A stretch of DNA of 64,000 nucleotides from Halanaerobium kushneri (GTDB lineage Bacteria; Bacillota; Halanaerobiia; Halanaerobiales; Halanaerobiaceae): NCBI RefSeq assembly GCF_900156285.1, contig NZ_FTNC01000003.1:124001-188000 (forward strand). The letters are read 5' to 3'. Both the position numbers and the translations under genes were made by a program. Of this stretch, positions 30,990 to 50,401 are shown one piece after another (the first letter of the stretch is position 1; every line of letters starts with the position of its first letter). The notes beneath the pieces were generated by a model, which did not search any database, was not told the DNA's origin, and saw only the letters and a list, made by a program, of their open reading frames with translations.

Positions 30990-34046
<3,057 letters not shown>

Positions 34047-34130: not shown

Positions 34131-35138
<1,008 letters not shown>

Positions 35139-35604: not shown

Positions 35605-36594
35605 ATGAAAACTTTTTGTCCTGAGTGCAGAAAGGACGTTGAGTATAAAATTGAGGAGCAGTTTGAGGAGAAGGAAGTTCGTGGATTAAAATTTAAATAT
35701 ACAGCAGAGAGGGCTTATTGTAATGATTGTGGTGAAGAAATTTTTATTTCTAAACTTCATGATCATAATCTTCAAAAAATAGATGATGCATATAGAAAAG
35801 AAGCAGGGATTATTAAAGTTTCTGAAATTAAAGAGATAGTTGATCAATATAATACTGGTAAAAGACCTTTATCATTACTTTTAGGTTGGGGTGAGACTAC
35901 TTTAACCCGTTATCTGGATGGCGATATTCCTTCAAAAAGTTATTCTGAAACTTTAAAAAAGATTAAAGATGATTATAATTATATGAGACAGCTTGCAGAA
36001 GAAAATAGAGATAAAGTTACAGATAAAGCATATAATGATTTTATGGAAGCTATAAAAAAACTACAGCATAATGAGCTAAAAACAGAAAAGAAAATTGATA
36101 GTGTAATTAAGTATCTGCTTAAAGAACTGGGTGAAGTAACTCCTTTAGCACTGCAGAAGTTGCTTTATTATAGCCAGGGATTTTATAAAACATTCTATGA
36201 TGAGTTTTTATTTAATGATAATTGTGAAGCTTGGGTTCACGGTCCTGTTTATAAAGATATATATTTTAAATATAGAAATTTTGGTTATAATCCGATTGAA
36301 GATGAAAGCTTGGAATTTAAAAACATTGAACTTACCGAAGCAGAAGAAGAACTTTTAGATAGTATTATTGATAACTTTGGCTGTTATAGTGCTAAAACAC
36401 TTGAAAAAATGACTCATTCTGAAAGACCATGGCGTTTGACTAGAAAAAATTTAAAAGCAGAGGAAAAAAGTGATGAGATTATAAGTAAAGAACTTATAGC
36501 AGATTATTTTAGAGATGTTAATGATAAATATAAAATGTTAAATGTTGAAGATATTAATGATTATAGTGAACAATTATTCATTAAAATAAAATAG
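35605..36594 (+). CDS. Zinc-finger/HTH/Panacea (DUF4065, SocA-like) antitoxin-type protein
   Basis: A 329-residue three-part protein. Residues 1-50 form an MqsA-like zinc finger with Cys5, Cys8, Cys39 and Cys42. Residues about 70-125 form an HTH (VSEIKEIVDQYNTGKRPLSL, then GWGETTLTRYLDGDIPS). Residues about 165-300 match the Panacea/DUF4065 domain (VTPLALQKLLYYSQGFYK, WVHGPVYKDIY, TLEKMTHSERPW). Panacea is established as an antitoxin domain that neutralises many unrelated toxins, normally encoded next to it. The HTH suggests autoregulation via the palindrome upstream. GAAGGGGGAGG precedes ATG 35605. A decayed HTH copy lies at 10023. Confidence 0.82.
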   Translation: MKTFCPECRKDVEYKIEEQFEEKEVRGLKFKYTAERAYCNDCGEEIFISKLHDHNLQKIDDAYRKEAGIIKVSEIKEIVDQYNTGKRPLSLLLGWGETTLTRYLDGDIPSKSYSETLKKIKDDYNYMRQLAEENRDKVTDKAYNDFMEAIKKLQHNELKTEKKIDSVIKYLLKELGEVTPLALQKLLYYSQGFYKTFYDEFLFNDNCEAWVHGPVYKDIYFKYRNFGYNPIEDESLEFKNIELTEAEEELLDSIIDNFGCYSAKTLEKMTHSERPWRLTRKNLKAEEKSDEIISKELIADYFRDVNDKYKMLNVEDINDYSEQLFIKIK

Positions 36595-36896: not shown

Positions 36897-38153
36897 ATGA
36901 ACAAAATTTCAACAGTTGCAGTTCTTGGAGCTGGTAATAGAGGTCGAGAAGCTTATGGTAAATACATATTAGAACATCCAGGAGATATTAAAGCAGTTGC
37001 AGTAGCTGAACCGAATGCTGATAAGCGGGCTTTTTTTGCAAAAGAACATAAAATTTCTAAAGAGCTGCAGTTTGAAAGCTGGAAAGATTTGTTGGAGAAA
37101 GAAAAGCTGGCAGATGGCATCATAATTGCAACTTTAGATAAGATGCATTTAGAACCAGTTTTAAAGGCTATGGAAAGAGGATATAAGATTCTCTTGGAAA
37201 AACCGATTGCTCCCAATCTTGAAGATTTAATTGAAATTTATAATAAGTATAAAGCTACAGATAGTGATATTTTAGTAGCCCATGTTTTAAGGTACACAAA
37301 TTTCTTTGCTAAAATAAAAGAACTTCTTTCACAAAATATGATTGGAAAGCTAAGATATGTTGATTTAAATGAGAATATTGGCTATTATCATTTTGCCCAC
37401 AGTTATGTCCGGGGAAACTGGAGAAATACTGATTCAGCTGCTCCAATTATTTTAGCAAAAAGCTGTCATGATCTCGATATTTTACACTGGCTTTTAGGAA
37501 CTAAAACTAAAAAGCTCAGTTCCTCAGCTTCTCTAGAAATTTTTAAAGAAGAGTTACAGCCAGAAAATGCTGCTGATAGATGTATTTACTGTGAAATAGA
37601 GGCAGACTGTCCTTATTCGGCACGAAAGATATACCTAGGTGATAATACTGACTGGCCAACTTCAGTAATTACTACTGACTTATCATATGAAGGTAGATTT
37701 AAAGCCTTAAAAGAGGGTCCTTATGGAAGATGTGTCTGGAAATCCGATAATAATGTACCAGATGTGCAGCGGGTAAATATGACACAAAGTGATAACACAG
37801 AAGTTAATTTTACCCTGACTGCTTTTTCAAAAGATATTACCCGAGATATTAAAATTTATGGTTCTTTAGGAGAAATTAAAGGTGATTTTGAAAAAGGAAT
37901 TATTGAACTTTCTGTTTTTGGCAAAAGTAATTCAGTGATTGAAATTGAAGCTGCTTCCGGTCACCATGGAGGAGGAGACAGCGGTTTAATGAATCAATTT
38001 GTTTCTTTGCTTAAAGGTAAAGAAATTGATGCCTGGAGCAGTTCTTTAGAGGAATCGCTGGAGAGTCATTTGATGGCCTTTGCTGCTGAAGAAGCAAGGA
38101 AAAAAGACGAAGTTATTAATTTAAAGCAATGGCGTCAGGATAAATTAAAATAA
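36897..38153 (+). CDS. Gfo/Idh/MocA family oxidoreductase
   Basis: A 418-residue NAD(P)-dependent sugar/inositol dehydrogenase-type protein. The Rossmann motif VAVLGAGNRGREAYG opens the chain, EKP (101-103) is the catalytic-lysine motif, and SCHDLDILHWLLG near residue 190 holds the active-site His. The C-terminal domain carries an unusual cysteine cluster (CIYCEIEADCPYS and a later GRCVW), possibly a structural metal site. AGGTG precedes ATG 36897. The adjacent permease relic suggests it once worked with an imported sugar. The substrate is unknown. Confidence 0.88.
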   Translation: MNKISTVAVLGAGNRGREAYGKYILEHPGDIKAVAVAEPNADKRAFFAKEHKISKELQFESWKDLLEKEKLADGIIIATLDKMHLEPVLKAMERGYKILLEKPIAPNLEDLIEIYNKYKATDSDILVAHVLRYTNFFAKIKELLSQNMIGKLRYVDLNENIGYYHFAHSYVRGNWRNTDSAAPIILAKSCHDLDILHWLLGTKTKKLSSSASLEIFKEELQPENAADRCIYCEIEADCPYSARKIYLGDNTDWPTSVITTDLSYEGRFKALKEGPYGRCVWKSDNNVPDVQRVNMTQSDNTEVNFTLTAFSKDITRDIKIYGSLGEIKGDFEKGIIELSVFGKSNSVIEIEAASGHHGGGDSGLMNQFVSLLKGKEIDAWSSSLEESLESHLMAFAAEEARKKDEVINLKQWRQDKLK

Positions 38154-38384: not shown

Positions 38385-38449
38385 AAAAGTGGAAAACTTT
38401 CCATTTATAAATTAAAAAAACATAAAAAACAGAAAATTTTCCACTTTTT
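38385..38449. promoter_or_regulatory. Pair of inverted operator-like sites
   Basis: AAAAGTGGAAAACTTTCCAT (38385-38404) and, on the other strand, AAAGTGGAAAATTTTCTGT (38429-38448) share AAAGTGGAAAA-TTTC. Site 1 contains the palindrome TGGAAA-AC-TTTCCA. They end 4 bases before the -35 of the ygc-like cluster promoter. The RpiR-type regulator at 49691 is the most likely ligand. Confidence 0.55.
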
Positions 38450-38452
38450 CTC

Positions 38453-38481
38453 TTGACATTGCAAAAAATGAGTATTATAAT
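38453..38481 (+). promoter_or_regulatory. Strong promoter of the ygc-like cluster
   Basis: TTGACA (38453-38458), 17 bases, TATAAT (38476-38481): a full sigma-70/SigA consensus, 66 bases before the first gene. Confidence 0.85.
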
Positions 38482-38547: not shown

Positions 38548-40044
38548 GTGAGTGTAGTCCAAAAAGAACAGGAAGTTGTTGAGAGTTTAGTTGATTTGTT
38601 GTCAGAAGAGCAGGTGAATACCAATGATGAGGATTTATATGAAGCATCAGTAGACAGATACAAAAAATATGCTTTTGCTCGTAATGTCCTCGATGTTCCA
38701 CAGCCAGTAGCAATTGTTTATCCAGATTCATCAGAGGAAGTAAGCAGTCTTTTACAATTCTGTAATGAGAATGAAATCAATGTTATTCCAAGAAGTGGTG
38801 ATACTTCAACAGAAGGGGGGTTAGAAAACTGGAAAGATTTAACTGTAATAATTGATGCAGAAAATCTTAATAAGATTGTTGATATCGACACTTATAATAT
38901 GCAGGCAACTGTACAGGCAGGTGTGCCGCTGGAAGAATTGGAAGATGAGCTAAGAGAAAAAGGTTTTACTACAGGTCATTCCCCACAGTCAAAACCAGTA
39001 GCTAAAATGGGAGGACTTGTTGCAACCAGAAGTATTGGTCAGCTTTCAACTTTATATGGTGGAATTGAAGATATGGTTATCGGTTTAGAATGTGTATTCC
39101 CTGATGGTCACGTTTCTAAAATTAAAAACGTACCAAGAAGAGCCGGTGGACCTGATATTAGACATATCGCAATTGGTAATGAAGGAACACTTTGTTACAT
39201 AACTGAGGTTACAGTAAAAATATTTAAACACTATCCTGAAAACAATAAATTTTACGGTTATTTAACTGAAGATATTGAAACCGGAATCAAAGTTTTAAGA
39301 GAAGTAATGGTTAATGGTTATCGTCCTTCAGTTGCCAGAGCTTATTCAGAAGAAGATGCAAAACAGCATTTCTATCACTTCAGCAAGGATAAATGTGTTC
39401 TGATATTGATGGCAGAAGGACCAAAAAATATTGTTGAGGCTACCGGAGAAGCAGTAGAAGAAGCGGTAGAGAAATTTGACGAGGGTATAATCGAAGAGGT
39501 TGATAGTGAATTAATTGAAGACTGGTTTAATAATTTAAACTGGTCACAGCAGGATATAGAAGATGAGTATGAAGGTATGATTGAAAATGATTCACATGCT
39601 GGATTTACTACAGAAATTTCTGCTGACTGGGGAACAATACCAGTAATCTATAACAATGTTATGGAAAGAGTTAAAGAAGAGTTCCCACGTGCTCATGAAC
39701 TGACTCTACTGGGTGGACATTCTTCACACAGTTATATAAATGGAACAAACTTATACTTTGTTTACAATTATGAGATCAACTGTGCTCCAGAAGATGAATT
39801 AAGAGTTTACCATCACCCAATTCACAAAATAATTGTTGAAGAAACATTAAAACATGGTGGCTCAATGTGTCATCACCATGGAATAGGGAAATATCGTAGT
39901 GAATGGACAAAAGAAGAACATGGCTCTGCTTATTACATGTTAGAGAAGCTAAAAGAAGTATTTGATCCTAAGGGTATTATGAATTATGGCTCAATATTCC
40001 CTAAAGAAGATGGAATAAAAAAATATATAAATAAAGAAGAGTAA
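38548..40044 (+). CDS. FAD-linked oxidase, AGPS/YgcU-like
   Basis: A 498-residue flavoprotein of the vanillyl-alcohol oxidase type. Residues about 50-230 hold the FAD-binding PCMH domain (QPVAIVYPDSSEEVSSLLQF, VIPRSGDTSTEGG, GHSPQSKPVAKMGGLVATRS). The C-terminal cap domain ends with His442-His443-His444 in CHHHGIGKYR, the signature of alkyl-DHAP synthase-like proteins and of E. coli YgcU. ETF-like subunits downstream probably accept its electrons. The GTG start follows GAGGTGG. The substrate is likely a hydroxy acid or polyol derivative, which cannot be fixed from sequence. It is the first gene of the cluster, under a consensus promoter. Confidence 0.85.
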   Translation: MSVVQKEQEVVESLVDLLSEEQVNTNDEDLYEASVDRYKKYAFARNVLDVPQPVAIVYPDSSEEVSSLLQFCNENEINVIPRSGDTSTEGGLENWKDLTVIIDAENLNKIVDIDTYNMQATVQAGVPLEELEDELREKGFTTGHSPQSKPVAKMGGLVATRSIGQLSTLYGGIEDMVIGLECVFPDGHVSKIKNVPRRAGGPDIRHIAIGNEGTLCYITEVTVKIFKHYPENNKFYGYLTEDIETGIKVLREVMVNGYRPSVARAYSEEDAKQHFYHFSKDKCVLILMAEGPKNIVEATGEAVEEAVEKFDEGIIEEVDSELIEDWFNNLNWSQQDIEDEYEGMIENDSHAGFTTEISADWGTIPVIYNNVMERVKEEFPRAHELTLLGGHSSHSYINGTNLYFVYNYEINCAPEDELRVYHHPIHKIIVEETLKHGGSMCHHHGIGKYRSEWTKEEHGSAYYMLEKLKEVFDPKGIMNYGSIFPKEDGIKKYINKEE

Positions 40045-40065
40045 AAAGCTAAAGGAATAAAAAAA

Positions 40066-40134
40066 GAGGCCTCCTTCTTTGAATTTAGCATTTACTACAG
40101 CAATAGTTTAAGCATTCAAAGAAGGAATCCTCCT
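40066..40134. other. Long hairpin between oxidase and MFS genes
   Basis: GAGGCCTCCTTCTTTGAAT pairs with ATTCAAAGAAGGAATCCTC across a 29-base loop. On the plus strand no T run follows, but on the minus strand the stem is followed by TCTTTTTTT. So it would terminate minus-strand transcription, yet no minus-strand gene is visible nearby. Confidence 0.55.
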
Positions 40135-40299
40135 AAATTATTCTATCAGAAAAATAAATAGATTTAAATAGTTTTCCAGTCTTAAGTTTTTAATTTATAA
40201 AATTTTCTTTTAAAAATTTTGAATCTTATAAATTAAAAATCAAATCAAAATAATTCTGGAAATCAAATAATAATCTTTTTTCTAAATAAGGAGGAAATT

Positions 40300-41598
40300 A
40301 TGTTTGATAATATAAAAAAAGAAGATTTAAATAGATATTTTCAGTTTACTTTAGTTGTTATAGCAGCAGGAGTTATTTATCCTCTGGTATATTTAAGAAC
40401 TCAGTTCCAGGAGACAATTCTTACAGTATTTAATATGACAAATGGACAGTTAAATAATATTTATTCACTTTTAGGTCTGGTTTTTATCTTTGGATATTTA
40501 CCAAGTGGATTATTAAGTGATAAATTTTCAGCGAAAAAGCTTCTTGCTTTATCACTACTTGGTACATCATTAGGAGGATTCTGGTTTGCTCAGGTTCCTG
40601 ATCATCCTCAGGTCCAAATAATCTTTGCTATCTGGGGCTTTTTTACAGTATTTACTTTCTGGAGTGCCCATATGAAGCTTGTGAAAATGCTTTCCACAGA
40701 TAAAGATGAAGGTAAATTTTTTGGTATACTTGATGGTGGTAGAGGGGTTGTAGAAGCTGCCTTAGGAAGTCTGGCAGTATTTATTTTTGCCCAGGTGCTT
40801 GGTGAAGCCACCAATGTAGCTGCAAAAGCAGATGCTTTAATATCTGTTATTTATATGTATTCATTTGTTTTACTTATTTCATCTATTTTAGTATTTTTCT
40901 TTGTTAAAGAACAAAGAAGTTCAGAAGCTAATGAGGATGAAGGATATGAAGCACCTAAATTAAAACTATCTGACCTTAAGGAACTGCTGAAAAATAAATA
41001 TATCTACCTTCAGGGTGGAATTGTATTTATGGGTTATTCCGTATTCTGGACTTCATATTATGTTGGTGGATTTTTGCAAACAAATGTTGGAGCTACAGCT
41101 GTAACAGTAGGTACTGTTATGGGTATAGTACTCTGGATGAGACCTGTTGGTGGATTTTTAGGAGGCTATTTAGCAGATAAGATTGGAAAAGAAAAGACTA
41201 TTGGTGGAGCACTTACAGGGGGAGCAATCTGCTTAATTCTGCTAGCAACTCTACCGGTTTCCTTAAATAATTATGTATTCTATGGTTTAGCTATAATCTT
41301 TGGTGTATTCTACTATGCAATCCGTGGAACATACTGGTCTTTACTTGGAAAAGCAAAAATAGATCCAGTGATTATGGGTTCAGCAATTGGTTTAATATCC
41401 TTAATCGGTTATTTCCCGGATATTATTTTACCACAGATGAACTCCTTCCTCTTTAACACTTTTGGCAGTAATGGTGGGTATAATGCCTACTTTATTGTAA
41501 GTGCTGGTTTAGGAGTTCTTGGTGTAGTAATTGCTACTATCTATTATAGAGTTAATAAGAACGAAATAATGGAAAATTCTGAGGAAGAGGTTGCCTAA
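40300..41598 (+). CDS. Major facilitator superfamily transporter (YqcE/YihN-like)
   Basis: A 432-residue carrier with 12 hydrophobic segments and a central charged loop (about residues 205-230, KEQRSSEANEDEGYE). The MFS signature appears as GLLSDKFSAKKLL after helix 2 and GGYLADKIGKEKTI in the second half. Overall character is that of the YihN/YqcE branch. AAGGAGG precedes ATG 40300. Its place between the YgcU-like oxidase and ETF genes suggests it imports the pathway substrate. Confidence 0.85.
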   Translation: MFDNIKKEDLNRYFQFTLVVIAAGVIYPLVYLRTQFQETILTVFNMTNGQLNNIYSLLGLVFIFGYLPSGLLSDKFSAKKLLALSLLGTSLGGFWFAQVPDHPQVQIIFAIWGFFTVFTFWSAHMKLVKMLSTDKDEGKFFGILDGGRGVVEAALGSLAVFIFAQVLGEATNVAAKADALISVIYMYSFVLLISSILVFFFVKEQRSSEANEDEGYEAPKLKLSDLKELLKNKYIYLQGGIVFMGYSVFWTSYYVGGFLQTNVGATAVTVGTVMGIVLWMRPVGGFLGGYLADKIGKEKTIGGALTGGAICLILLATLPVSLNNYVFYGLAIIFGVFYYAIRGTYWSLLGKAKIDPVIMGSAIGLISLIGYFPDIILPQMNSFLFNTFGSNGGYNAYFIVSAGLGVLGVVIATIYYRVNKNEIMENSEEEVA

Positions 41599-41605
41599 TT
41601 AAACT

Positions 41606-42400
41606 ATGAAAATAATATGCCTTGTTAAATATGTTCCCAATGTAGAAGATATAAAATATGATTATGAAGAAAATGTTCTAATCAGAGATAATGTTAAATT
41701 AATTCTTAATCCGGATGATGCTGCTGCAGTTGCTTTTGCCTTAAAGCTTAAAGATAGTAGGCCCGATCTTGAATTAGAAGTTTTAACGATGGGGCCGAAA
41801 TCTGTTAGGCCTTTTGTAGAAGATCTCTTAAGAAGAGATGTCGATCAGGCGACTATTATCTCAGATACTGCTTTTGCCGGCAGTGATACCTATGCCACTG
41901 CAAAAATACTGGCAGCCTATTTAAAGGATAAGGAATATGACTGTATCTTAACAGGAAGTAAAAGCCTTGATGGAGATACTTCCCATATTCCTGCCCAGGT
42001 TGGGGAAATACTCAATTTAAATCAGATGTCTAATCTGATGAGTATTGAGCAAGATTCATTTACTAAAGACAGAGCAGTTTTTGAGGTTGAAAGTGGAGAT
42101 AAAAGATTAAAATATGAGATTTTATTTCCGGCAGTTTTAAGCCTCAGAAAAGAGAGCGGTTATGAGCTTCCCTATATAAAGTATGAGAATATGTCACTGG
42201 ATGTTAGTGATAAGCTGGACATTATTTCAAATAAAGAACTTGGGCTTGCTGAAGATAGTATAGGACTTAAGGGCTCTCTAACGAGAGTTGCCAATACTTA
42301 TAATAAAAACTTTAAAGAAAAAGATAAAACAGTAGTCAAAAATGATGATCAGGGCATAGATTTCGTATATTCATTTTTAGAAAGGAAAGGCTTTGTTTAA
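41606..42400 (+). CDS. Electron transfer flavoprotein beta-like subunit (YgcR-like)
   Basis: A 264-residue ETF beta/FixA-type protein: KIICLVKYVPNVEDIKYD at the N-terminus, LNPDDAAAVAFALKLKD, LTMGPKSVRPFVEDLLRRDVDQA, then DCILTGSKSLDGDTSHIPAQVGEIL. It binds AMP or FAD together with the alpha subunit and shuttles electrons from a dehydrogenase. The start lacks a strong ribosome binding site and lies 7 bases after the MFS gene, suggesting coupling. It pairs with the next gene. Confidence 0.88.
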   Translation: MKIICLVKYVPNVEDIKYDYEENVLIRDNVKLILNPDDAAAVAFALKLKDSRPDLELEVLTMGPKSVRPFVEDLLRRDVDQATIISDTAFAGSDTYATAKILAAYLKDKEYDCILTGSKSLDGDTSHIPAQVGEILNLNQMSNLMSIEQDSFTKDRAVFEVESGDKRLKYEILFPAVLSLRKESGYELPYIKYENMSLDVSDKLDIISNKELGLAEDSIGLKGSLTRVANTYNKNFKEKDKTVVKNDDQGIDFVYSFLERKGFV

Positions 42401-42401
42401 T

Positions 42402-43358
42402 ATGGAAAAAACTTTAATTTATCTAGATCCTGAAAATATTAAAAATTCAATAGAGCTTTTAGAGGTTGCAGAGCAAATCCATGCTGAAAGTGATTTTGAG
42501 AGTTATGGAGTTATAATTAATGATTCAGCTGCCAGGCAGGAGCTAAATCATTTTGATTATATAATTAAGGTTCAGAATGAGGAACTTAAAAATTATGATC
42601 CTCTTGCTGTCACTGATATTATGGAAGAGATAGAAAATAAATATAACTTTGACAGCATTATTATCCCGGCAACCCACTTTGGTAGAATGCTGGCACCTCG
42701 TCTGGCAATGAGGCTTCATGTGGGATTAGTTGCAGATGTAACTGAAATTAAAAAAGATGGAGATGAATTAGAGCTAGTTAGACCTGCCTTCAGCGGGAGA
42801 ATAATGGCCGGGATTGTAACTGAGGCCAGAAAACCAATTATGTTAAGTGTAAGGCAAAATGTTTTTTCCTATGATTCTCCGCTTGAAAAAAATGTTAAGA
42901 TAATTGATTTTAAACCAGTAGATTATCAAAAGGGAAATATTAAATTATTAGAGAGCAGAAAAAATGAAATATCTTATGATATTAGAGAGAGTGAGATTCT
43001 TGTTTCAGGTGGAGGAGGAACTCTCAAAAATTTTGAAGAGATAAAACTGCTGGCTGATAATTTAAATGCTGAAGTTTCTGCCAGTCGAAAGATTATAGAT
43101 AATGGTAAAGCATCCCGCAATATTCAGGTAGGTCAGTCAGGTAAAACAGTAAGCCCTGATTTATATATAGCTCTGGGAATCAGTGGAGCTATAGAACATG
43201 TTGCAGGGTTAAAAAATATAGAGAATATTATTTCTGTAAATGTTAATAAAAATGCACCGATCTGCAGCCTTTCAGATATTGTTGTTGAAGGTGATGCGAT
43301 GGAGTTTGTTAAAAAATTATCAGCAAAGATTAAAAAAAATAAAAAGCAAAAAAATTAG
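42402..43358 (+). CDS. Electron transfer flavoprotein alpha-like subunit (YgcQ-like)
   Basis: A 318-residue ETF alpha/FixB-type protein. The N-terminal domain includes IIPATHFGRMLAPRLAMRL. The C-terminal FAD domain shows VSGGGGTLKNFEEI, SASRKIIDNG, QVGQSGKTVSPDLYIALGIS and GAIEHVAGLKN, all standard FAD contacts. ATG 42402 is chosen because AAAGGAAAGG then has usable spacing, while the TTG at 42393 is too close. Only one base separates it from the beta subunit stop. Confidence 0.9.
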   Translation: MEKTLIYLDPENIKNSIELLEVAEQIHAESDFESYGVIINDSAARQELNHFDYIIKVQNEELKNYDPLAVTDIMEEIENKYNFDSIIIPATHFGRMLAPRLAMRLHVGLVADVTEIKKDGDELELVRPAFSGRIMAGIVTEARKPIMLSVRQNVFSYDSPLEKNVKIIDFKPVDYQKGNIKLLESRKNEISYDIRESEILVSGGGGTLKNFEEIKLLADNLNAEVSASRKIIDNGKASRNIQVGQSGKTVSPDLYIALGISGAIEHVAGLKNIENIISVNVNKNAPICSLSDIVVEGDAMEFVKKLSAKIKKNKKQKN

Positions 43359-43369
43359 GAGGAATAATA

Positions 43370-44149
43370 ATGGATGTTATGGACTTTAATATGGATATGT
43401 TTAATTTAGAAGGTAAGAATGCTTTAGTTACAGGTGGAAACACCGGACTTGGTCAGGCTTTTGCTACTGCTCTTGCTAAAGGTGGAGCAAATGTAATGGC
43501 AGTTAGTCTGCAGGGTGATGGTGGAGAGACAAAAGAAATGATCGAATCCTGTGGCAGTGAGTATAAGTTTATGAAAGCAGATATTACAGAAGATGGTAAG
43601 TGTAAAAAAGCTGTTGATGCTGTTGTAGATGAGTGGGGAAGCATTGATATTGTAGTAAACTGTGCTGGCATTTCCATTAATGTTAGAGATGTAACCAAAT
43701 ATACCAGAAAAGAATGGGATAAGATGGTTTCTGTAAATCTAACAGCCGCTTTTGAAATGATCCATGAAGCTTCTAAATATATGATTGAGCAGGAAAGTGG
43801 AAAAATTATTAATATCGGTTCACTATTCTCATTCCTGGGTGGACAGTGGTCACCAGCATATGCTTCTACAAAACATGGTATTGTTGGTCTGACAAAGGCT
43901 ATGTGTGATGAATTAGCTCAGTTTAATGTTCAGGTTAATACAATTGCTCCTGGTTATTTTAAGACTAAATTGACAGAAGAAACCAGAAATGATGAAGAGA
44001 AGAATGAAACTATTTTATCTCATATCCCTGCAAATAGATGGGGAGATAAAGCTGATTTAATGGGAGCCTGCGTATTCTTAGCCAGTTCTGCTTCAGATTA
44101 TGTAAATGGAACTGTACTTACTGTTGATGGAGGTTATTTAGTACGATAA
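43370..44149 (+). CDS. Short-chain dehydrogenase/reductase (YgcW-like)
   Basis: A 259-residue classical SDR. The cofactor motif TGGNTGLG is at residues 21-28, NCAGISIN follows near residue 100, the catalytic Ser lies in INIGSLFSF, and Tyr164/Lys168 in YASTKHG. The C-terminal LTVDGGYLV is typical of the sugar-dehydrogenase (KduD/gluconate-5-dehydrogenase-like) branch. AGGAGG precedes ATG 43370. In the cluster it would oxidise or reduce the carbonyl of the pathway intermediate. Confidence 0.9.
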   Translation: MDVMDFNMDMFNLEGKNALVTGGNTGLGQAFATALAKGGANVMAVSLQGDGGETKEMIESCGSEYKFMKADITEDGKCKKAVDAVVDEWGSIDIVVNCAGISINVRDVTKYTRKEWDKMVSVNLTAAFEMIHEASKYMIEQESGKIINIGSLFSFLGGQWSPAYASTKHGIVGLTKAMCDELAQFNVQVNTIAPGYFKTKLTEETRNDEEKNETILSHIPANRWGDKADLMGACVFLASSASDYVNGTVLTVDGGYLVR

Positions 44150-44176
44150 AATATCATTGAAAAGGGGAATTTTAAA

Positions 44177-45604
44177 ATGTCAAAATATATATTGGGGATA
44201 GATCAAGGAACTCAAAGCACCAAAGTAACTATTTTTGATACTTTAGGTCATAAAATTGTGTCCCATACTGAACAGTTAAGAGAAATTCAACTGGGTGATA
44301 ATGGTGAAGCCCTTCATCCAGATGATGACTTATGGACCAGTCTTAAAGAGACCTGTAATAAAGTATTTGAAAAATTTGAAGGAAATAAAGATGATATAAT
44401 AGGAGTTGGCTTATTATCCATTAGATGCTGCCGGGCTCTACTTAAAGAGAACGGAGAGCTTGCATCACCGGTTCAAAGCTGGATGGATATCAGACTTTCC
44501 AGACCATATGAGCCAGAAGATGATGAGGTAAGATACTGTACAACAACAACTGGCTATTTAACTCACAGATTAACTGGTGAAACTAAGGATACAAGGTCAA
44601 ATTATGTGGGGCCCTGGCCTATTGATCCTGAAAATTTAGAATGGTTTGAAGATGAAGAAAAATACACAACCCCAAGAGATATGTTATTTGAATTGGTAGA
44701 TCCAGCAACTGTCTTAGGAGAAGTTACTGCTGAAGCAAGTAAGTTGACCGGGATTCCTGCTGGGATACCAGTTGTTTCTACTTCAAATGACAAAGCTGTT
44801 GAAGGATTGGGAGCAGGAATAACAGATGATGGAACTGTTCTTGTATCCTTAGGTACATATATAACATCAATGATGATGGGAGATGAGTACGACTCTGAAC
44901 CAGAAAACTACTTTACAAATCCAGGTGCTACTCCAGGAGAGTTTCTCTATGAAAGTAGTGGAATTAGAAGAGGTATGTCAACTGTAACCTGGATCAAAGA
45001 TTTATTAGGCAGTGATGTGATAGAAGAGGCAGAAAAGAGAGATATTTCACCGGAAAATTATTTAAATATGCTTGCTGAAGATATTCCTGCTGGAAGTAAT
45101 GGCTTATATACAGTACTCCACTGGCTGCCTAGACCAAATAAACAGCATGAGCGTGGAATTATGATCGGATTTAATGGAACCCACAAAGGACCTCATATGT
45201 TCCGCTCAATACTTGAGGGTATAGCCTTAACAATGTATAATAATTCTCAGGCAATGTGTGATGAGCTGGATATTGATTTAAATGAAATTGTAGTAAGTGG
45301 TGGTGGCTCAAAAGGAGATTTATTTATGCAGATCTTCTCTGATATCTATGGGGTACCTGCCCACAGAAATGAAGTGAATGGAGCTGCTGGACTTGGTTCT
45401 GCTATCTGTGCTGCCTTAGCTCTTGATGTTTATGACAGCAGAGAAGAAGCTATAGAAAAGATGGTAAGACATGAGGATACATTTACTCCAGATCTGGAAA
45501 CTCATGAATTTTATCAGGAAATAAACGAAAAAGTATACAAGCATATTCCACAGCATAATGAACAACTATTAAAAAAATCACATAATATATTAAATGAAGA
45601 GTAA
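44177..45604 (+). CDS. FGGY-family carbohydrate kinase (YgcE-like)
   Basis: A 475-residue sugar kinase of the xylulokinase/glycerol kinase superfamily. ILGIDQGTQSTKVTIFD is the N-terminal phosphate-binding loop. SWMDIR, YLTHRLTG, the conserved SNDKAVEGLGAG region and the C-terminal VVSGGGSKGDLFMQIFSDI plus NGAAGLGSAI complete the ATPase fold. AAAGGGG precedes ATG 44177. A terminator follows, closing the first transcription unit. It phosphorylates the sugar or polyol made by the preceding enzymes; the product may be the RpiR-type regulator ligand. Confidence 0.9.
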   Translation: MSKYILGIDQGTQSTKVTIFDTLGHKIVSHTEQLREIQLGDNGEALHPDDDLWTSLKETCNKVFEKFEGNKDDIIGVGLLSIRCCRALLKENGELASPVQSWMDIRLSRPYEPEDDEVRYCTTTTGYLTHRLTGETKDTRSNYVGPWPIDPENLEWFEDEEKYTTPRDMLFELVDPATVLGEVTAEASKLTGIPAGIPVVSTSNDKAVEGLGAGITDDGTVLVSLGTYITSMMMGDEYDSEPENYFTNPGATPGEFLYESSGIRRGMSTVTWIKDLLGSDVIEEAEKRDISPENYLNMLAEDIPAGSNGLYTVLHWLPRPNKQHERGIMIGFNGTHKGPHMFRSILEGIALTMYNNSQAMCDELDIDLNEIVVSGGGSKGDLFMQIFSDIYGVPAHRNEVNGAAGLGSAICAALALDVYDSREEAIEKMVRHEDTFTPDLETHEFYQEINEKVYKHIPQHNEQLLKKSHNILNEE

Positions 45605-45630
45605 GAATATAAATAGTTTTAAGAAATAGA

Positions 45631-45680
45631 TATAAACTGGCAGAAAAAGTTTTTCTGCCAGTTTATATGATGTTTTTTTG
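45631..45680 (+). terminator. Rho-independent terminator
   Basis: TATAAACTGGCAGAAAAA pairs with TTTTTCTGCCAGTTTATA almost without a loop, followed by TGATGTTTTTTT. It ends the ygc-like unit, though read-through to the BCCT gene is possible. Confidence 0.85.
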
Positions 45681-45742
45681 CTTAAATTATTTAAAATTTT
45701 TATTTGCTGCTATATTCTTTACATATTTTAAGGGGGGTTATT

Positions 45743-47341
45743 TTGGAAAATACTAAATTTAAAAATGAGGAAGAAAAATTTGAAGAAAACTCAGAAGAGG
45801 AAAAGACAGTTCAAAAAATACGGCCATATGTTTTTTATCCCACATTTATTCTGCTGATATCAACAATTATTTTAAACTTTACAAATGAAAAACTATTCTT
45901 AAAAGTTACATCTGTTGCTAAAAATTTTATGGTAGTTGATATGGGCTGGCTCTTTAGTATTACAGGTGGTTTAAGTGTTGTTATAATTGTTTTTGTTTAT
46001 TTTTCACCTCTCGGGGAAGTAAGACTGGGTGGAGAAGATGCTGAACCAATACTTAATCGGCCATCCTGGTTTGCAATAACACTCTGTACAACTATAGCTG
46101 CTGGAATTTTATTCTGGGGTACAGCAGAGCCGATGTGGCATTTTGCCTATCCACCTGAATCTTTAGGAATTGAACCAAGGTCTGTAGATGCAGCAAAATT
46201 TGCGATGGAAACAATGTATCTTCACTGGACATTTATACCCTATGCTATTTATACAGTTCCTACTATAGTTTTTGGCTTTGCCTATTATAATATGAAGCGT
46301 TCATTTAGTGTGGGTTCTCAAATTGCTCCTTTAGTTAAGCAGAAAAAACAGAAAAAGTTCAATAACATAATTGATGCAGTTGTTTTATTTACAGTTGCAA
46401 CAGGTATTTCTTCATCTTTTGGAACAGCTGTTATGAATATGGGTGGAGGAATGAATGCTTTATTTAACATCAATAACAGTAAATCACTCTGGGTAGTGAT
46501 CACAGTAGCCGGAACAATAGCCTTTATTATTTCTTCAGGAACTGGTTTGATGAAGGGTATCAGAGTTCTTTCAAATGTTAATATGTATATTTATTATATA
46601 ATAATTGCTGTATTACTAATATTGGGTCCATCTGTTTATTTTTTGAGAGTTGGAACAGAAACTTTCGGTATATTCTTAGACAATATTTTTAGTAGAGCAC
46701 TTTTTACAGGAGGAGCAGCTGGTGATCAGTGGGCCTCAGACTGGACGATGTTTTACTGGTCTAACTGGATGGCCTGGGCACCGGTTTCTGCAGTTTTTCT
46801 AGCCAGAGTTGCTTACGGATATAAAATTAAAGAAGTTGTATTAATGAATTTTGTTTTCCCAAGTATATTCAGTACTGTCTGGATGACAATACTTTCTGGA
46901 ACTACAATTAATTATCAGATGACAGGTAAGGTAGATGTATTAGGAATAATGAGTGAACAGGGTTCAGGTGCGGCAGCTTATGCCGTTTTAGGAGAGTTAC
47001 CCCTCTCTGGAGTTATAATAGCTATTTATCTCCTGGCTGTTATGATTTCATTTATTACAGCAACTGACTCTACTACAAATGCGATGTCAAGTATCAGTAC
47101 TTCTGGAATTAAGATAGGAGATGAAGAAGCACCACTACCGATTAAATTAATCTGGGGAATTATCATTGGTGGTATTGCACTTGTATTTATAACAACCCTA
47201 GGTTTAGATGGAATAAAAATGATGTCCTATCTGGGAGGATTTCCTGCCCTTTTCTTAGGTTTATTTAGTCTGGCATCACTTGTATTGATGATGAGAAGGC
47301 CCGAAAAATTTGATATCAAAATTAATAAAAAGGATGATTAG
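45743..47341 (+). CDS. BCCT-family transporter
   Basis: A 532-residue carrier with 12 hydrophobic segments and an acidic N-terminal tail (KNEEEKFEENSEEEKT). BCCT members import betaine, choline, carnitine and related solutes. Family features include GWLFSITGG, ILFWGTAEPMWHFAYPP and ATGISSSFGTAV. The signature region reads DWTMFYWSNWMAWAP, where one Trp of the usual WAWW box is Asn, so substrate preference may differ. TTG 45743 is chosen after AAGGGGGG. SurE starts just after its stop. Placement in a catabolic cluster suggests nutrient uptake rather than only osmoprotection. Confidence 0.88.
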   Translation: MENTKFKNEEEKFEENSEEEKTVQKIRPYVFYPTFILLISTIILNFTNEKLFLKVTSVAKNFMVVDMGWLFSITGGLSVVIIVFVYFSPLGEVRLGGEDAEPILNRPSWFAITLCTTIAAGILFWGTAEPMWHFAYPPESLGIEPRSVDAAKFAMETMYLHWTFIPYAIYTVPTIVFGFAYYNMKRSFSVGSQIAPLVKQKKQKKFNNIIDAVVLFTVATGISSSFGTAVMNMGGGMNALFNINNSKSLWVVITVAGTIAFIISSGTGLMKGIRVLSNVNMYIYYIIIAVLLILGPSVYFLRVGTETFGIFLDNIFSRALFTGGAAGDQWASDWTMFYWSNWMAWAPVSAVFLARVAYGYKIKEVVLMNFVFPSIFSTVWMTILSGTTINYQMTGKVDVLGIMSEQGSGAAAYAVLGELPLSGVIIAIYLLAVMISFITATDSTTNAMSSISTSGIKIGDEEAPLPIKLIWGIIIGGIALVFITTLGLDGIKMMSYLGGFPALFLGLFSLASLVLMMRRPEKFDIKINKKDD

Positions 47342-47344
47342 TTA

Positions 47345-48157
47345 TTGTTAAAAAATAATCATAAATATAAACCCTTAATTCTAATAACAAATGATGATGG
47401 AATAAATTCTCCCGGCCTTAACGCCCTTGCAGAAGCAGTATCCCCATTCGCCAGGCTCTTGATTGCTGCCCCTAAAAAGCAGCAGACAGGAATGGGGAGA
47501 GCTTTTCTTAAAGGAGATAAGGTTGGAATGATCGAATCAAAAAATATCAATATTAACGGCAGAACAGTTAAAGCTTATGCGGTTAATGCATCACCTGCAC
47601 AATCTGTGGCCCATGCAGTTTTAGAAATTGCAGCTGAAAAACCAGATTACTGTATAAGTGGAGTTAATTATGGGGAAAATTTGGGTCTTTCCTATACCTG
47701 CAGTGGGACTCTTGGAGCCGCTTTTGAAGCTGATAGTCTTGGGATACCTTCAATAGCATTTTCAAGAGCTTTTCCCTTCAATAAACAGAAATCAAGTGAT
47801 TTTAGTGATTTAGACTGGAAAGTAGAAAAATATCACATCTCTAAGATTGTAAAAAATATAATTGAGTCAGGTTTTCCTGGAAAGACAAGAATTTTAAATG
47901 TTAATTTTCCAAAAAATCTAAAAAGAGAAACTGAGCTAAGGATCACCAGACAGGCATATATGAATTATGCTCGTTATATTAAACCAGCAGATCGAAATTT
48001 TTCTGATGCCCAGAGTTTAAAGTGGGAGCTGAATCCCAGTATAAAAAATGCAGAAAAAGATACTGATATCTATGCAGTTCATTTTGATAATGTTATATCA
48101 TTAACTCCACTGAGCTCAAGGATGTCTGTAGAGGTTGATAACTATTATGGGCGCTAA
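47345..48157 (+). CDS. surE: SurE-like 5'/3'-nucleotidase
   Basis: A 270-residue member of the SurE phosphatase family. The divalent-metal motif is ILITNDDG (Asp17, Asp18), followed by SPGLNAL, SGVNYGENLG and the YTCSGTLGAAFEAD region (normally YSGTVGAA). SurE proteins remove phosphate from nucleoside monophosphates and short polyphosphates. It starts with TTG 3 bases after the BCCT gene and is thus co-translated with it, an unusual partner. It may act on a phosphorylated pathway intermediate. Confidence 0.85.
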   Translation: MLKNNHKYKPLILITNDDGINSPGLNALAEAVSPFARLLIAAPKKQQTGMGRAFLKGDKVGMIESKNININGRTVKAYAVNASPAQSVAHAVLEIAAEKPDYCISGVNYGENLGLSYTCSGTLGAAFEADSLGIPSIAFSRAFPFNKQKSSDFSDLDWKVEKYHISKIVKNIIESGFPGKTRILNVNFPKNLKRETELRITRQAYMNYARYIKPADRNFSDAQSLKWELNPSIKNAEKDTDIYAVHFDNVISLTPLSSRMSVEVDNYYGR

Positions 48158-48240
48158 ATTATTTAGAGCATGCTTTCAACTTTAAATTATAAAATAATTT
48201 TAGTGGCTTTTAAGCTACTCTAAAAAGTTAGGTGAAACAG

Positions 48241-49563
48241 ATGAAAAATGTTGGTGAACTGAATCTCGATTATTTGTGCTTGGGCTGTGGCAGCTGTGAG
48301 GTGGCCTGTCCTGTTGCTGCTGTAGAGATTAAATTAAAAAATAATGTTTATCTTCCTGAAGTTGATAATATTAAATGTATAGAATGTGATAAATGTCTGA
48401 ATGTGTGTCCTGGAACTTCAATTAGTTTAGAGGGATATGCAGATACTCTTTTTGCAGCCGATAATTCGGGCAATAAAGATGAGGTTCTCGGTAGATATTT
48501 ATCAAATTATCTCGCTTATGCAGCTGATCAAAAATTAAGATATGAAGCTGCTTCAGGCGGTCTGGCTACCAGCATTTTAATTTATTTACTTGAAGAGGGA
48601 ATTATTGAGGGAGCAGTAGTGACAAAAATGAGTGAAGAGGATAAAAGAAAAAGTAAAACTTTTATTGCTCAAAGTGCAGAAGAAATCAAAGCTGCAAAAA
48701 ATTCAAAGTACTGCTCAACCCATCCCTTATCAGCCTTAAAGGAGTTAAGAAATTTTGAAAGTGATGCTAAATTTGCATTTGTAGGACTACCCTGCCATAT
48801 TCAGGGCCTGAGGAAACTTCAGCAGCAGGAGAAGTGGCTGCGGAAAAAAATAATATTTTCAATTGGACTTTTGTGTACTCATTCAGTCGATTATTCCGGG
48901 ACAGAAGTTATTTTAGATAAGCTTGCCTCAGGGAGTAAAAATATAAAAAAGCTTGAATACAGGGGCAGTGGTTGGCCCGGCAAGGCAAGTATAGAATATG
49001 AAGATCATAGTTCATCAATTCCCCTTTATGATTACTGGAGTCCCTATTTTGCCTCTTATTTTTTTACACCTTATAGGTGTTTAAGCTGCAGTGATTTGGT
49101 GGGAGAGTTAGCGGATATTTCACTTGGTGATGCCTGGTTAAAGGAGATAGAAGCAGAAGATGATCTTGGTACTTCAATAATCATCAGCAGAACTAAATTT
49201 GCTGAAAAGATTATCAGGGAAATGAAAGTTAATGGTATTATTGCTGCTGAAAAGATTTCAAAAGATAAAATTAAAGAGTCCCAGAAGAAAATTATTATGA
49301 GGAAAAAACATACTATAGCATATAGGTTGAGTTTGTTTAAAATATTTTCTAAAGAAGTTCCTGATTATGGGAAAGCATATGATCTTAGTGATCAATCAAT
49401 TTTTCAAAAGTTTAAAGGATATTTAGGTGCATTTCTGCTCTGGTTTAACTCCTATCTCAGTAAAAAGGAGATCGGAATTAAAATAATTAAGTTTATACCG
49501 AGAAGCATTTTAAAGAAATATTCTTCTTTAGTTAATAAAGCTGCCGGTAGAAAATATGAATAA
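48241..49563 (+). CDS. Iron-sulfur FrhB/FdhB-like oxidoreductase
   Basis: A 440-residue protein with two ferredoxin-type [4Fe-4S] motifs at the N-terminus (CLGCGSCEVACPVAAV and CIECDKCLNVCPG). An FrhB/FdhB-type F420 hydrogenase beta domain follows (ASGGLATSILIYLLE, FVGLPCHIQGLRKLQ, LLCTHSVDYSGTE, YRCLSCSDLVGELADISLGD). Such proteins pass electrons between ferredoxin-like donors and flavin partners; some work in glycan modification. ATG 48241 is preferred to GTG 48232, which lies in the ribosome binding site. It follows SurE by 83 bases. The partner is unknown. Confidence 0.8.
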   Translation: MKNVGELNLDYLCLGCGSCEVACPVAAVEIKLKNNVYLPEVDNIKCIECDKCLNVCPGTSISLEGYADTLFAADNSGNKDEVLGRYLSNYLAYAADQKLRYEAASGGLATSILIYLLEEGIIEGAVVTKMSEEDKRKSKTFIAQSAEEIKAAKNSKYCSTHPLSALKELRNFESDAKFAFVGLPCHIQGLRKLQQQEKWLRKKIIFSIGLLCTHSVDYSGTEVILDKLASGSKNIKKLEYRGSGWPGKASIEYEDHSSSIPLYDYWSPYFASYFFTPYRCLSCSDLVGELADISLGDAWLKEIEAEDDLGTSIIISRTKFAEKIIREMKVNGIIAAEKISKDKIKESQKKIIMRKKHTIAYRLSLFKIFSKEVPDYGKAYDLSDQSIFQKFKGYLGAFLLWFNSYLSKKEIGIKIIKFIPRSILKKYSSLVNKAAGRKYE

Positions 49564-49605
49564 TTATAATCACAAAAATGTATACAAAGATACTTAATAT
49601 ATCAC

Positions 49606-49634
49606 TTGACGTATATAAATCATAATTATATAAT
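49606..49634 (+). promoter_or_regulatory. Promoter of the RpiR-type regulator gene
   Basis: TTGACG (49606-49611), 17 bases, TATAAT (49629-49634). Confidence 0.75.
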
Positions 49635-49690
49635 TAATTACAAATTGTGGGAGAATAATAAAAGTTAAATTATAAGGATTGTGAATTGTA

Positions 49691-50401
49691 TTGATAAATA
49701 TTGATTTAGATAATTTGAATGATTTTGAAAAAGAAATATATGCAAAGCTACTGGAGTATTCAAAAGATCATCCTGCTTTTAAGATAAGAGATGCGGCAGA
49801 AGTATGCGATTGTTCTGTGTCAAAAATTTCTAAATATGTGAAAAAGCTTGGATTTGATAACTATAAACAGTATATAGCCTTTTTATATGATGAAGAGATA
49901 CCCAATAAAGAGCAGTCAGATGAACTAAAAAGAATTAGAAATTTTATTGATGATTTTGATACTTCAATGATAGACGAGTTTATAGAATTGATTGATCAGC
50001 ATGAGAAGCTTGTTCTATTTGGTTATGGCCCTTCAGGCGCTATTACTGAGTATTTTGAATATAAATTTAGGACCTGTACAGATAAAATGGTTGTTTCTTT
50101 ATCAGATGATTCATCTATCTCATCAATGCTTGATGATAAAACACTGCTGATTATTTTTACAGCTACTGGTTCATTTTGTTCATTTAAACCTATTTATGAA
50201 GATGCAAAAGAGCAGGGAGCAAAGGTTGCAATTGTTGTTGAGGAATATAATACCTCTCTTTTCAATCAGTGTGATAAAATTTTCTGGCTTTCTAAATTTA
50301 ATCAGCCAGATTACCTGGAGCCATATCAAAAAACAAGAACAATATTTTTTATATTTATTGAAGAAGTTATACGGAAGATAATATTGAATAATATGGATTA
50401 A
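49691..50401 (+). CDS. RpiR/MurR-type transcription regulator
   Basis: A 236-residue regulator. The N-terminal HTH domain (about residues 10-70) includes FKIRDAAEVCDCSVSKISKY and VKKLGFDNYKQYIAFL, the usual RpiR pattern. The C-terminal SIS domain (about 100-220) shows KLVLFGYGPSGAITEYFEYK, LLIIFTATG and AKVAIVVEE, expected to bind a phosphorylated sugar. The start is TTG 49691 with AAGGA about 11 bases upstream. It has its own promoter and is placed at the end of the ygc-like/BCCT cluster. The inverted sites at 38385-38449 are its predicted operators. Confidence 0.85.
   Translation: MINIDLDNLNDFEKEIYAKLLEYSKDHPAFKIRDAAEVCDCSVSKISKYVKKLGFDNYKQYIAFLYDEEIPNKEQSDELKRIRNFIDDFDTSMIDEFIELIDQHEKLVLFGYGPSGAITEYFEYKFRTCTDKMVVSLSDDSSISSMLDDKTLLIIFTATGSFCSFKPIYEDAKEQGAKVAIVVEEYNTSLFNQCDKIFWLSKFNQPDYLEPYQKTRTIFFIFIEEVIRKIILNNMD

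Follow-up and report, generated by a model that had tools for sequence, protein, structure and literature searches.

A possible role in betaine-lipid headgroup breakdown for an AGPS-like flavoenzyme operon of Halanaerobium, shared in part with the ygc genes of Escherichia coli

We analysed a 64-kb window, meaning here the whole stretch of DNA that was studied, from the 3.22-Mb genome of Halanaerobium kushneri (GCF_900156285.1, NZ_FTNC01000003.1, positions 124,001–188,000 of the forward strand), in which six consecutive genes encode a flavoprotein oxidase, a transporter, the two subunits of an electron transfer flavoprotein (ETF), a short-chain dehydrogenase (SDR) and a kinase. These genes, together with the predicted regulatory sites around them and two further genes that we assign to the same set, are listed below in window coordinates; conservation refers to the related species Halanaerobium saccharolyticum (L005).

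38391–38402, no strand assigned: predicted operator 1, GGAAAACTTTCC, with one mismatch to the palindrome GGAAAATTTTCC; kept in H. saccharolyticum
38431–38442, no strand assigned: predicted operator 2, AGAAAATTTTCC, on the same basis as operator 1; kept in H. saccharolyticum
38453–38481, + strand: promoter-like site TTGACA-17-TATAAT, called from a 12/12 sigma70-like consensus match only; kept in H. saccharolyticum
38548–40044, + strand: AGPS-like FAD oxidase (YgcU family), 57% to YgcU; Pfam FAD_binding_4 and FAD-oxidase_C
40300–41598, + strand: MFS transporter, weakly YqcE-like, 26% to YqcE; Pfam MFS_1
41606–42400, + strand: ETF beta; Pfam ETF; nearest solved relatives CarD and clostridial EtfB
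42393–43358, + strand: ETF alpha; Pfam ETF and ETF_alpha; nearest solved relatives Clostridioides difficile-type EtfA, CarE and LctC
43370–44149, + strand: SDR (YgcW family), 61% to YgcW; Pfam adh_short
44177–45604, + strand: FGGY-family kinase (YgcE family), 46% to YgcE; Pfam FGGY_N/C; under all named FGGY family cut-offs
45630–45668, no strand assigned: terminator-like hairpin of 18 pairs with a T-rich tail on the + strand, directly beyond the six genes
45743–47341, + strand: BCCT transporter with Asn in its ligand box (YWSNW); Pfam BCCT
49691–50401, + strand: RpiR/SIS-domain regulator; SIS domain; homologue in 36 of 64 loci, co-occurring with the operator

An earlier sequence-only reading of positions 38548–45604 had described six genes in this order and on this strand. 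Judging from the list of open reading frames, all six are intact, their families are borne out by Pfam, and the motif HHHGIGKYR that it had noted occupies residues 442–450 of the oxidase. The gap past the oxidase gene measures 255 bases and those elsewhere at most 28, while the promoter match ends 66 bases ahead of the oxidase start. Because a 12/12 promoter match precedes the genes and a hairpin with a T-rich tail follows them, they look like a single transcription unit. The same gene order, at 77–95% identity, is present in H. saccharolyticum, which fits the reading's guess of a halophilic anaerobe. Its interval holds the six genes but stops short of the BCCT and the RpiR/SIS regulator (45743–50401), which belong to the same set. 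We read the BCCT start as the TTG at 45743 behind AAGGGGGG, whereas the listed open reading frame starts at 45704. A Gfo/Idh gene upstream (36897–38153) was considered and rejected as a member of the set, being missing at that place in H. saccharolyticum and in the other loci.

The six genes had also been likened to the uncharacterised E. coli ygc genes as having the same family composition. Compared with the K-12 ygc region, which formed our comparison set, the oxidase, SDR and kinase match YgcU, YgcW and YgcE over their full length at the levels listed above, but the MFS protein shares one single-linkage cluster with YqcE only via intermediates, ETF alpha reaches YgcQ at 28% over 248 amino acids, and ETF beta has no YgcR match at 1e-3. 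The families are indeed common to both, yet by sequence just three of the six proteins qualify as clear orthologue candidates, and the gene order differs, in that E. coli ygcQRSUW lies divergent from yqcE-ygcE and includes an extra MFS protein, YgcS. The window ETF is clostridial/CarDE-like and clusters apart from YgcQR-type ETFs, which on this evidence makes it an ETF of another type. Common to the window and the E. coli cluster (ygcNOPQRSUW / yqcE-ygcE) are the YgcU, YgcW and YgcE candidates, an MFS protein that is weakly YqcE-like in the window, and an ETF pair; the E. coli region has no BCCT, RpiR or operator, unlike the window set, which in turn has no adjoining YgcN, YgcO, YgcP or YgcS. 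Homologues of YgcP and YgcS occur in other members of the gene set. Within E. coli, ygcU is found in 5,041 of 5,426 complete genomes; in some strains the gene is interrupted by IS1 (NZ_AP021891.1, 960088–962319).

To place the set in a wider frame, loci that encode a protein closely related to the oxidase were assembled from a genome-collection scan (21 loci), annotated plasmid regions (6), sampled genomes (38) and E. coli K-12; 64 of these were machine-readable, and the counts that follow are built on greedy calling of open reading frames and single-linkage clusters. Across the sampled genomes the gene set is sporadic, with 4 occurrences in 398 genomes of the window's phylum and 11 in 295, 22 in 299, 2 in 297 and 3 in 96 in other groups; two sampled members of the window's own genus are without it. 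The oxidase is present at all 64 loci, the kinase at 62 and the SDR at 59, compared with 26 for an ETF adjoining the core and 28 for an MFS protein, so that the conserved core consists of the oxidase, the SDR and the kinase, which travel together in loci from many phyla. The view that retention of the set in distant bacteria points to one pathway is therefore well founded, but the ETF and MFS genes, which had been counted as fixed parts of it, are not. An RpiR/SIS regulator accompanies 36 of the 64 loci and a GlpP-type antiterminator (YgcP) 27. At three loci (L021, L048 and L049) the core is joined by two ETF pairs and a second, LctD-like FAD oxidase, which might mean that another hydroxyacid is oxidised or that electrons are bifurcated there.

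The alkyl-DHAP synthase AGPS, a maker of glyceryl ethers, and an SDR form a known pair of ether-glycerol enzymes. By sequence, the nearest solved relatives of the window oxidase are the mammalian and Dictyostelium AGPS enzymes (173 bits, with the next family at 102), and AGPS is also the best hit of a fold search with a model of moderate quality (pLDDT 69.9). The catalytic residues Arg419, Tyr578 and His615–617 of AGPS correspond to R264, Y403 and H442–444 of the window protein, and these are invariant in 12 diverse members of the family. In the Dictyostelium enzyme, Arg352, Tyr508 and Arg447 are reported to be important for catalysis (PMC3509576), and the alignment shows the equivalents of Arg352 and Tyr508 to be kept. 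AGPS takes the C1 hydrogen from the dihydroxyacetone phosphate (DHAP) unit, and the alcohol is proposed to add to a flavin adduct, giving the ether (PMC3509576). The window oxidase shares with the AGPS/ADPS enzymes and their SDR reductase the flavoprotein fold, the equivalents of Arg419, Tyr578 and the three histidines, and the SDR partner, but it is shorter and its operon holds uptake, kinase and ETF genes, which suggests that it works in breakdown rather than synthesis. By analogy, an AGPS-type enzyme in an uptake operon suggests either the reverse direction of the reaction or the oxidative opening of a glyceryl ether.

The same oxidase could instead be taken for part of a lactate- or glycolate-type D-2-hydroxyacid dehydrogenase–ETF unit, with the kinase and SDR as chance neighbours; in LctBCD of Acetobacterium, too, a FAD_binding_4 oxidase is encoded with EtfB and EtfA. 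The proteins belong to one superfamily, LctD and GlcD rank among the nearer relatives of the oxidase after AGPS, and the window ETF resembles bifurcating ETFs. However, the LctD score is 73.5 bits as against 173 for AGPS, the GlcD model yields 144.6 bits where its cut-off is 567.9, and HHHGIG is a constant of the oxidase family, whereas LctBCD carries another oxidase subfamily and active-site motif and has no counterpart to the kinase, the SDR or the betaine transporter. On scores and motif we rejected the reading of the oxidase as a lactate or glycolate dehydrogenase, and since the kinase and SDR genes adjoin it at almost every locus (62 and 59 of 64) whereas ETF genes do so at 26, we regard a unit of this kind as very improbable.

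Sugar acids, polyols and deoxy sugars were the substrates that the sequence-only reading had in mind, and an ordinary pathway for one of them, by MFS import, ETF-linked oxidation, an SDR step and phosphorylation, has several features on its side: the FGGY kinase and the KduD/gluconate-dehydrogenase-like SDR belong to sugar-type families, MFS genes are present at the 28 loci mentioned, SIS-domain regulators usually sense sugar phosphates, and a 45% relative of the oxidase (L037; G076:C68:1-6936) directly precedes a sugar-type ABC transporter. Because of this last neighbour the wider oxidase family may use other polyols, the L037 protein perhaps representing a sister family with another substrate. 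On the other hand, the oxidase is AGPS-like, and the kinase and SDR remain under every named sugar-family cut-off that was applied. Among the models for XylB, LsrK, GlpK, GntK and AraB the kinase came closest to XylB, with 165 of 380 bits, and the SDR reached 281.7 of 338.9 bits with the KduD model TIGR01832 and 329.6 of 369 with PRK06935.

Under the sugar reading, betaine transporters near the core would merely serve salt tolerance, and their distribution argues otherwise. Within 10 kb of the core, a BCCT is encoded at 14 of 53 loci and an OpuAC-type ABC system at 10 others, with no locus having both; the ABC type that recurs is OpuC/OsmF-like, and one transporter type takes the place of the other. 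Linkage at 24 of 53 loci compares with 2.16 expected from per-genome gene counts when gene positions are taken as uniform, an excess of about 11-fold, and the largest value in 200,000 simulations was 10. This excess, the mutual exclusion of the two types and their presence at the core in gut and lactic bacteria too are difficult to reconcile with a salt-tolerance role alone.

The linked BCCTs are also altered in their ligand box. The window protein, which is the only BCCT of its genome, matches the Pfam BCCT profile at 398 bits over positions 1–483 of 485, and in the box (Y-W/F-x-N-W) Asn is found in 17 of 17 linked full-length BCCTs. Trp occupies that position in E. coli CaiT, BetT and YeaV and in each of 49 unlinked BCCTs taken from the same set of genomes; the first 25 of these 49 (25/25 Trp) were biased towards top-scoring proteins, and the 24 added to them included 19 of lower rank. 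In the alignment the position is that of a box tryptophan of DddT, and we take it to be Trp373 of BetP. The linked proteins thus resemble BCCTs of the BetP/CaiT/DddT type in being full-length and in keeping the rest of the aromatic box, but differ from the classical glycine-betaine, carnitine and choline transporters, whose Trp box is intact, in having Asn for one box Trp. The literature searched held nothing on the BCCT Trp box. A change seen in none of the 49 unlinked BCCTs is a further point against general salt tolerance, and we conclude that the substrate is probably a quaternary-ammonium or betaine-type compound.

The regulatory sites point the same way. Allowing at most one mismatch, GGAAAATTTTCC occurs upstream of the first core gene at 32 of the 36 loci that carry an RpiR/SIS gene (the exceptions being L013, L014, L016 and L051) and at none of the 28 others. 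In the operator scan a version with a spacer gave a weak result and the ungapped 12-mer a clear split; the motif was derived from these loci, so it is the division between RpiR and non-RpiR loci that makes a fair test. The copies at 38391 and 38431 are the sole ones in the window, and because the operator tracks the presence of RpiR/SIS, the regulator at 49691–50401 can be tied to the six genes. At L052, where a betaine ABC operon and the core operon diverge, three copies lie in between, an arrangement that suggests shared control of the core and the betaine transporter and is not what a sugar pathway would lead one to expect. Weighing this together with the transporter data, we consider a sugar-type substrate somewhat unlikely. 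We propose the RpiR/SIS protein as the sensor of a phosphorylated intermediate and as the protein that binds the predicted site, a role that in other bacteria would fall to the GlpP-type antiterminator; YgcP is a member of the family of antiterminators that respond to glycerol 3-phosphate (PF04309), which fits a glycerol-phosphate-like intermediate.

A clue to the nitrogen-bearing part of the substrate comes from genes outside the window, which we call module 2. In a clostridial locus (L022), a betaine ABC system lies upstream, and directly after the SDR, FAD oxidase and FGGY genes come, in the same orientation, genes for an aspartase-like lyase, an aldehyde dehydrogenase (ALDH) that resembles betaine-aldehyde dehydrogenase (BADH), and a zinc alcohol dehydrogenase (ADH). 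A Priestia plasmid (L032) carries lyase, ALDH and ADH genes beside the core, along with a 56% YgcS homologue and an IclR regulator, and on a Vibrio plasmid (L033) lyase and ALDH accompany BCCTs. The module is found elsewhere in the genome in the ygc-positive L078 and L079, with a YgcS-type MFS protein, and L077, with a BCCT and a betaine substrate-binding protein. Overall, this lyase type is present in 4 of 53 ygc-positive and 0 of 80 ygc-negative genomes, the best matches being at most 310 bits in the 80 negative relatives and 349–546 bits in the four positives, with a slightly different query. No copy of module 2 was found in the window's genome.

The lyases belong to the family of the aspartase AspB and, in the alignment, keep its alpha-carboxylate residues T187, K324 and N326, but in all of them N142 is changed to Ser or Ala, H188 to Cys, and T101 is replaced; in 6 of 7, I320-M321 has become Phe-Phe. 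In AspB, N142 and H188 touch the substrate amine (PMC11744663). The residue pattern would fit an N-substituted aspartate, reached from the corresponding homoserine via ADH and ALDH. Betaine-type transporters, an AGPS-like oxidase and this amino-acid-betaine module together point to a quaternary-ammonium glycerol ether in place of the sugar-type substrates first suggested. A lyase–BCCT "fusion" on a Peribacillus plasmid (L073, 13998–16556), annotated merely as a BCCT, was rejected as a natural protein and looks more like what a deletion left behind: both partners are truncated at the joint, and the BCCT motif has changed.

The same logic could serve another quaternary-ammonium or sulfonium osmolyte with a different nitrogen fragment, such as a glyceryl or glycosyl betaine or the headgroup of the betaine lipids DGTA (diacylglyceryl hydroxymethyl-trimethyl-beta-alanine) or DGCC (diacylglyceryl carboxyhydroxymethylcholine). 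The transporter evidence applies to such compounds equally, the lyase residues say just "not plain ammonium", and the lyase-linked BCCTs (that of L077 and the second BCCT of the Vibrio locus L033) carry Ser instead of Asn at the key position, so that more than one related ligand appears to be handled. Nevertheless, ADH, ALDH and a lyase that keeps its dicarboxylate residues suit the conversion of an N-substituted homoserine to an aspartate better than they suit choline- or carnitine-type fragments, and we judge these other osmolytes unlikely.

A glycerol ether, a quaternary ammonium group and an N-substituted homoserine half match the deacylated headgroup of diacylglyceryl-N,N,N-trimethylhomoserine (DGTS), and for that reason we propose glyceryl-N,N,N-trimethylhomoserine (GTS), the water-soluble headgroup that remains once these betaine lipids have shed their fatty acids. 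It is quite possible that the operon catabolises a glycerol-ether-linked quaternary-ammonium zwitterion, for which GTS would be the leading candidate; that the substrate is GTS itself or a close glyceryl-ether betaine we put forward tentatively. In the predicted order of steps, GTS would be taken up via the BCCT, or elsewhere via a betaine-type ABC transporter or an MFS protein, and its free glycerol end would be phosphorylated by the FGGY kinase. The SDR would then oxidise the middle carbon to yield an analogue of alkyl-DHAP, the compound that AGPS makes and on which its partner SDR acts in ether-lipid synthesis. The AGPS-like flavoenzyme would take the hydrogen beside the ether oxygen, the ether would split into triose phosphate (or its aldehyde) and trimethylhomoserine, and the electrons would pass to ETF. 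In bacteria with module 2, ADH and ALDH might turn trimethylhomoserine into trimethylaspartate, from which the lyase would release trimethylamine and fumarate. Kinase, SDR and flavoenzyme in this order would amount to ether-lipid synthesis in reverse. The flavoenzyme step may be an oxidation in which ETF accepts the electrons, or an exchange by hydrolysis; given the ETF genes at 26 of 64 loci, oxidation is favoured in the organisms that bear them.

Several observations weigh against GTS breakdown. Twenty-nine of the 53 loci have no betaine-type transporter within 10 kb, the transporters of the E. coli ygc cluster are MFS proteins only, and the transporter-linked loci, although they span Halanaerobia, Clostridia, Bacilli, Actinomycetes and others, are related by descent and so are not independent. 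Module 2 is present in few genomes. For AGPS Arg515 (Arg447 in Dictyostelium), which bears on whether a phosphorylated substrate is bound, no equivalent could be assigned in YgcU, the column being variable and the stretch weakly aligned, and the sugar-type neighbour of L037 belongs on the same side. Finally, the trimethyl part is deduced from transporters and lyase residues, and other substituted amines would fit as well.

Betaine lipids are found in algae, fungi and lower plants, where they stand in for phospholipids under phosphate shortage. Free GTS is a product of lyso-DGTS hydrolysis in algae, its further hydrolysis being described in 2024 as still to be tested (PMC11711679). No bacterial GTS pathway was found in the literature searched (trimethylhomoserine, homoserine betaine, glyceryl-ether breakdown), nor was any paper on the function of the ygc gene set (ygc gene names, FGGY/ygcE). 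New here are the transporter linkage, the Asn box, the AGPS kinship of the oxidase, the lyase module and the operator that tracks RpiR/SIS. The full proposal, in which an AGPS-family flavoenzyme breaks the glyceryl ether of betaine lipids, a trimethylaspartate lyase yields trimethylamine and the E. coli ygc genes represent the first half of the route, is speculative and on balance less likely than not. It would offer a first testable function for genes present in more than 90% of E. coli genomes, and the genomic context supplies a candidate substrate that a known lipid can yield, a predicted operator and, for strains with the lyase module, a predicted product, trimethylamine. If correct, it would link membrane lipids of the sea and of the diet to osmolyte-type uptake and trimethylamine release by bacteria, and would place the ether-making AGPS family in a breakdown role.

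Two further genes lie between the BCCT and the regulator:

47345–48157, + strand: SurE-type phosphatase, 3 bases past the BCCT; Pfam SurE; among ygc loci kept only in Halanaerobium L005
48232–49563, + strand: ferredoxin–FrhB-type oxidoreductase; Pfam FrhB_FdhB and Fer4; among ygc loci kept only in Halanaerobium L005

Upstream of the set, the window encodes a large beta-galactosidase-like protein (30999–34046; so named from reading the sequence alone), after which come a LacI-type regulator (34131–35138) that scores above the NCBI EbgR cut-off (333 versus 330 bits) and a protein whose C-terminal half has a SocA/Panacea antitoxin-like domain (35605–36594).

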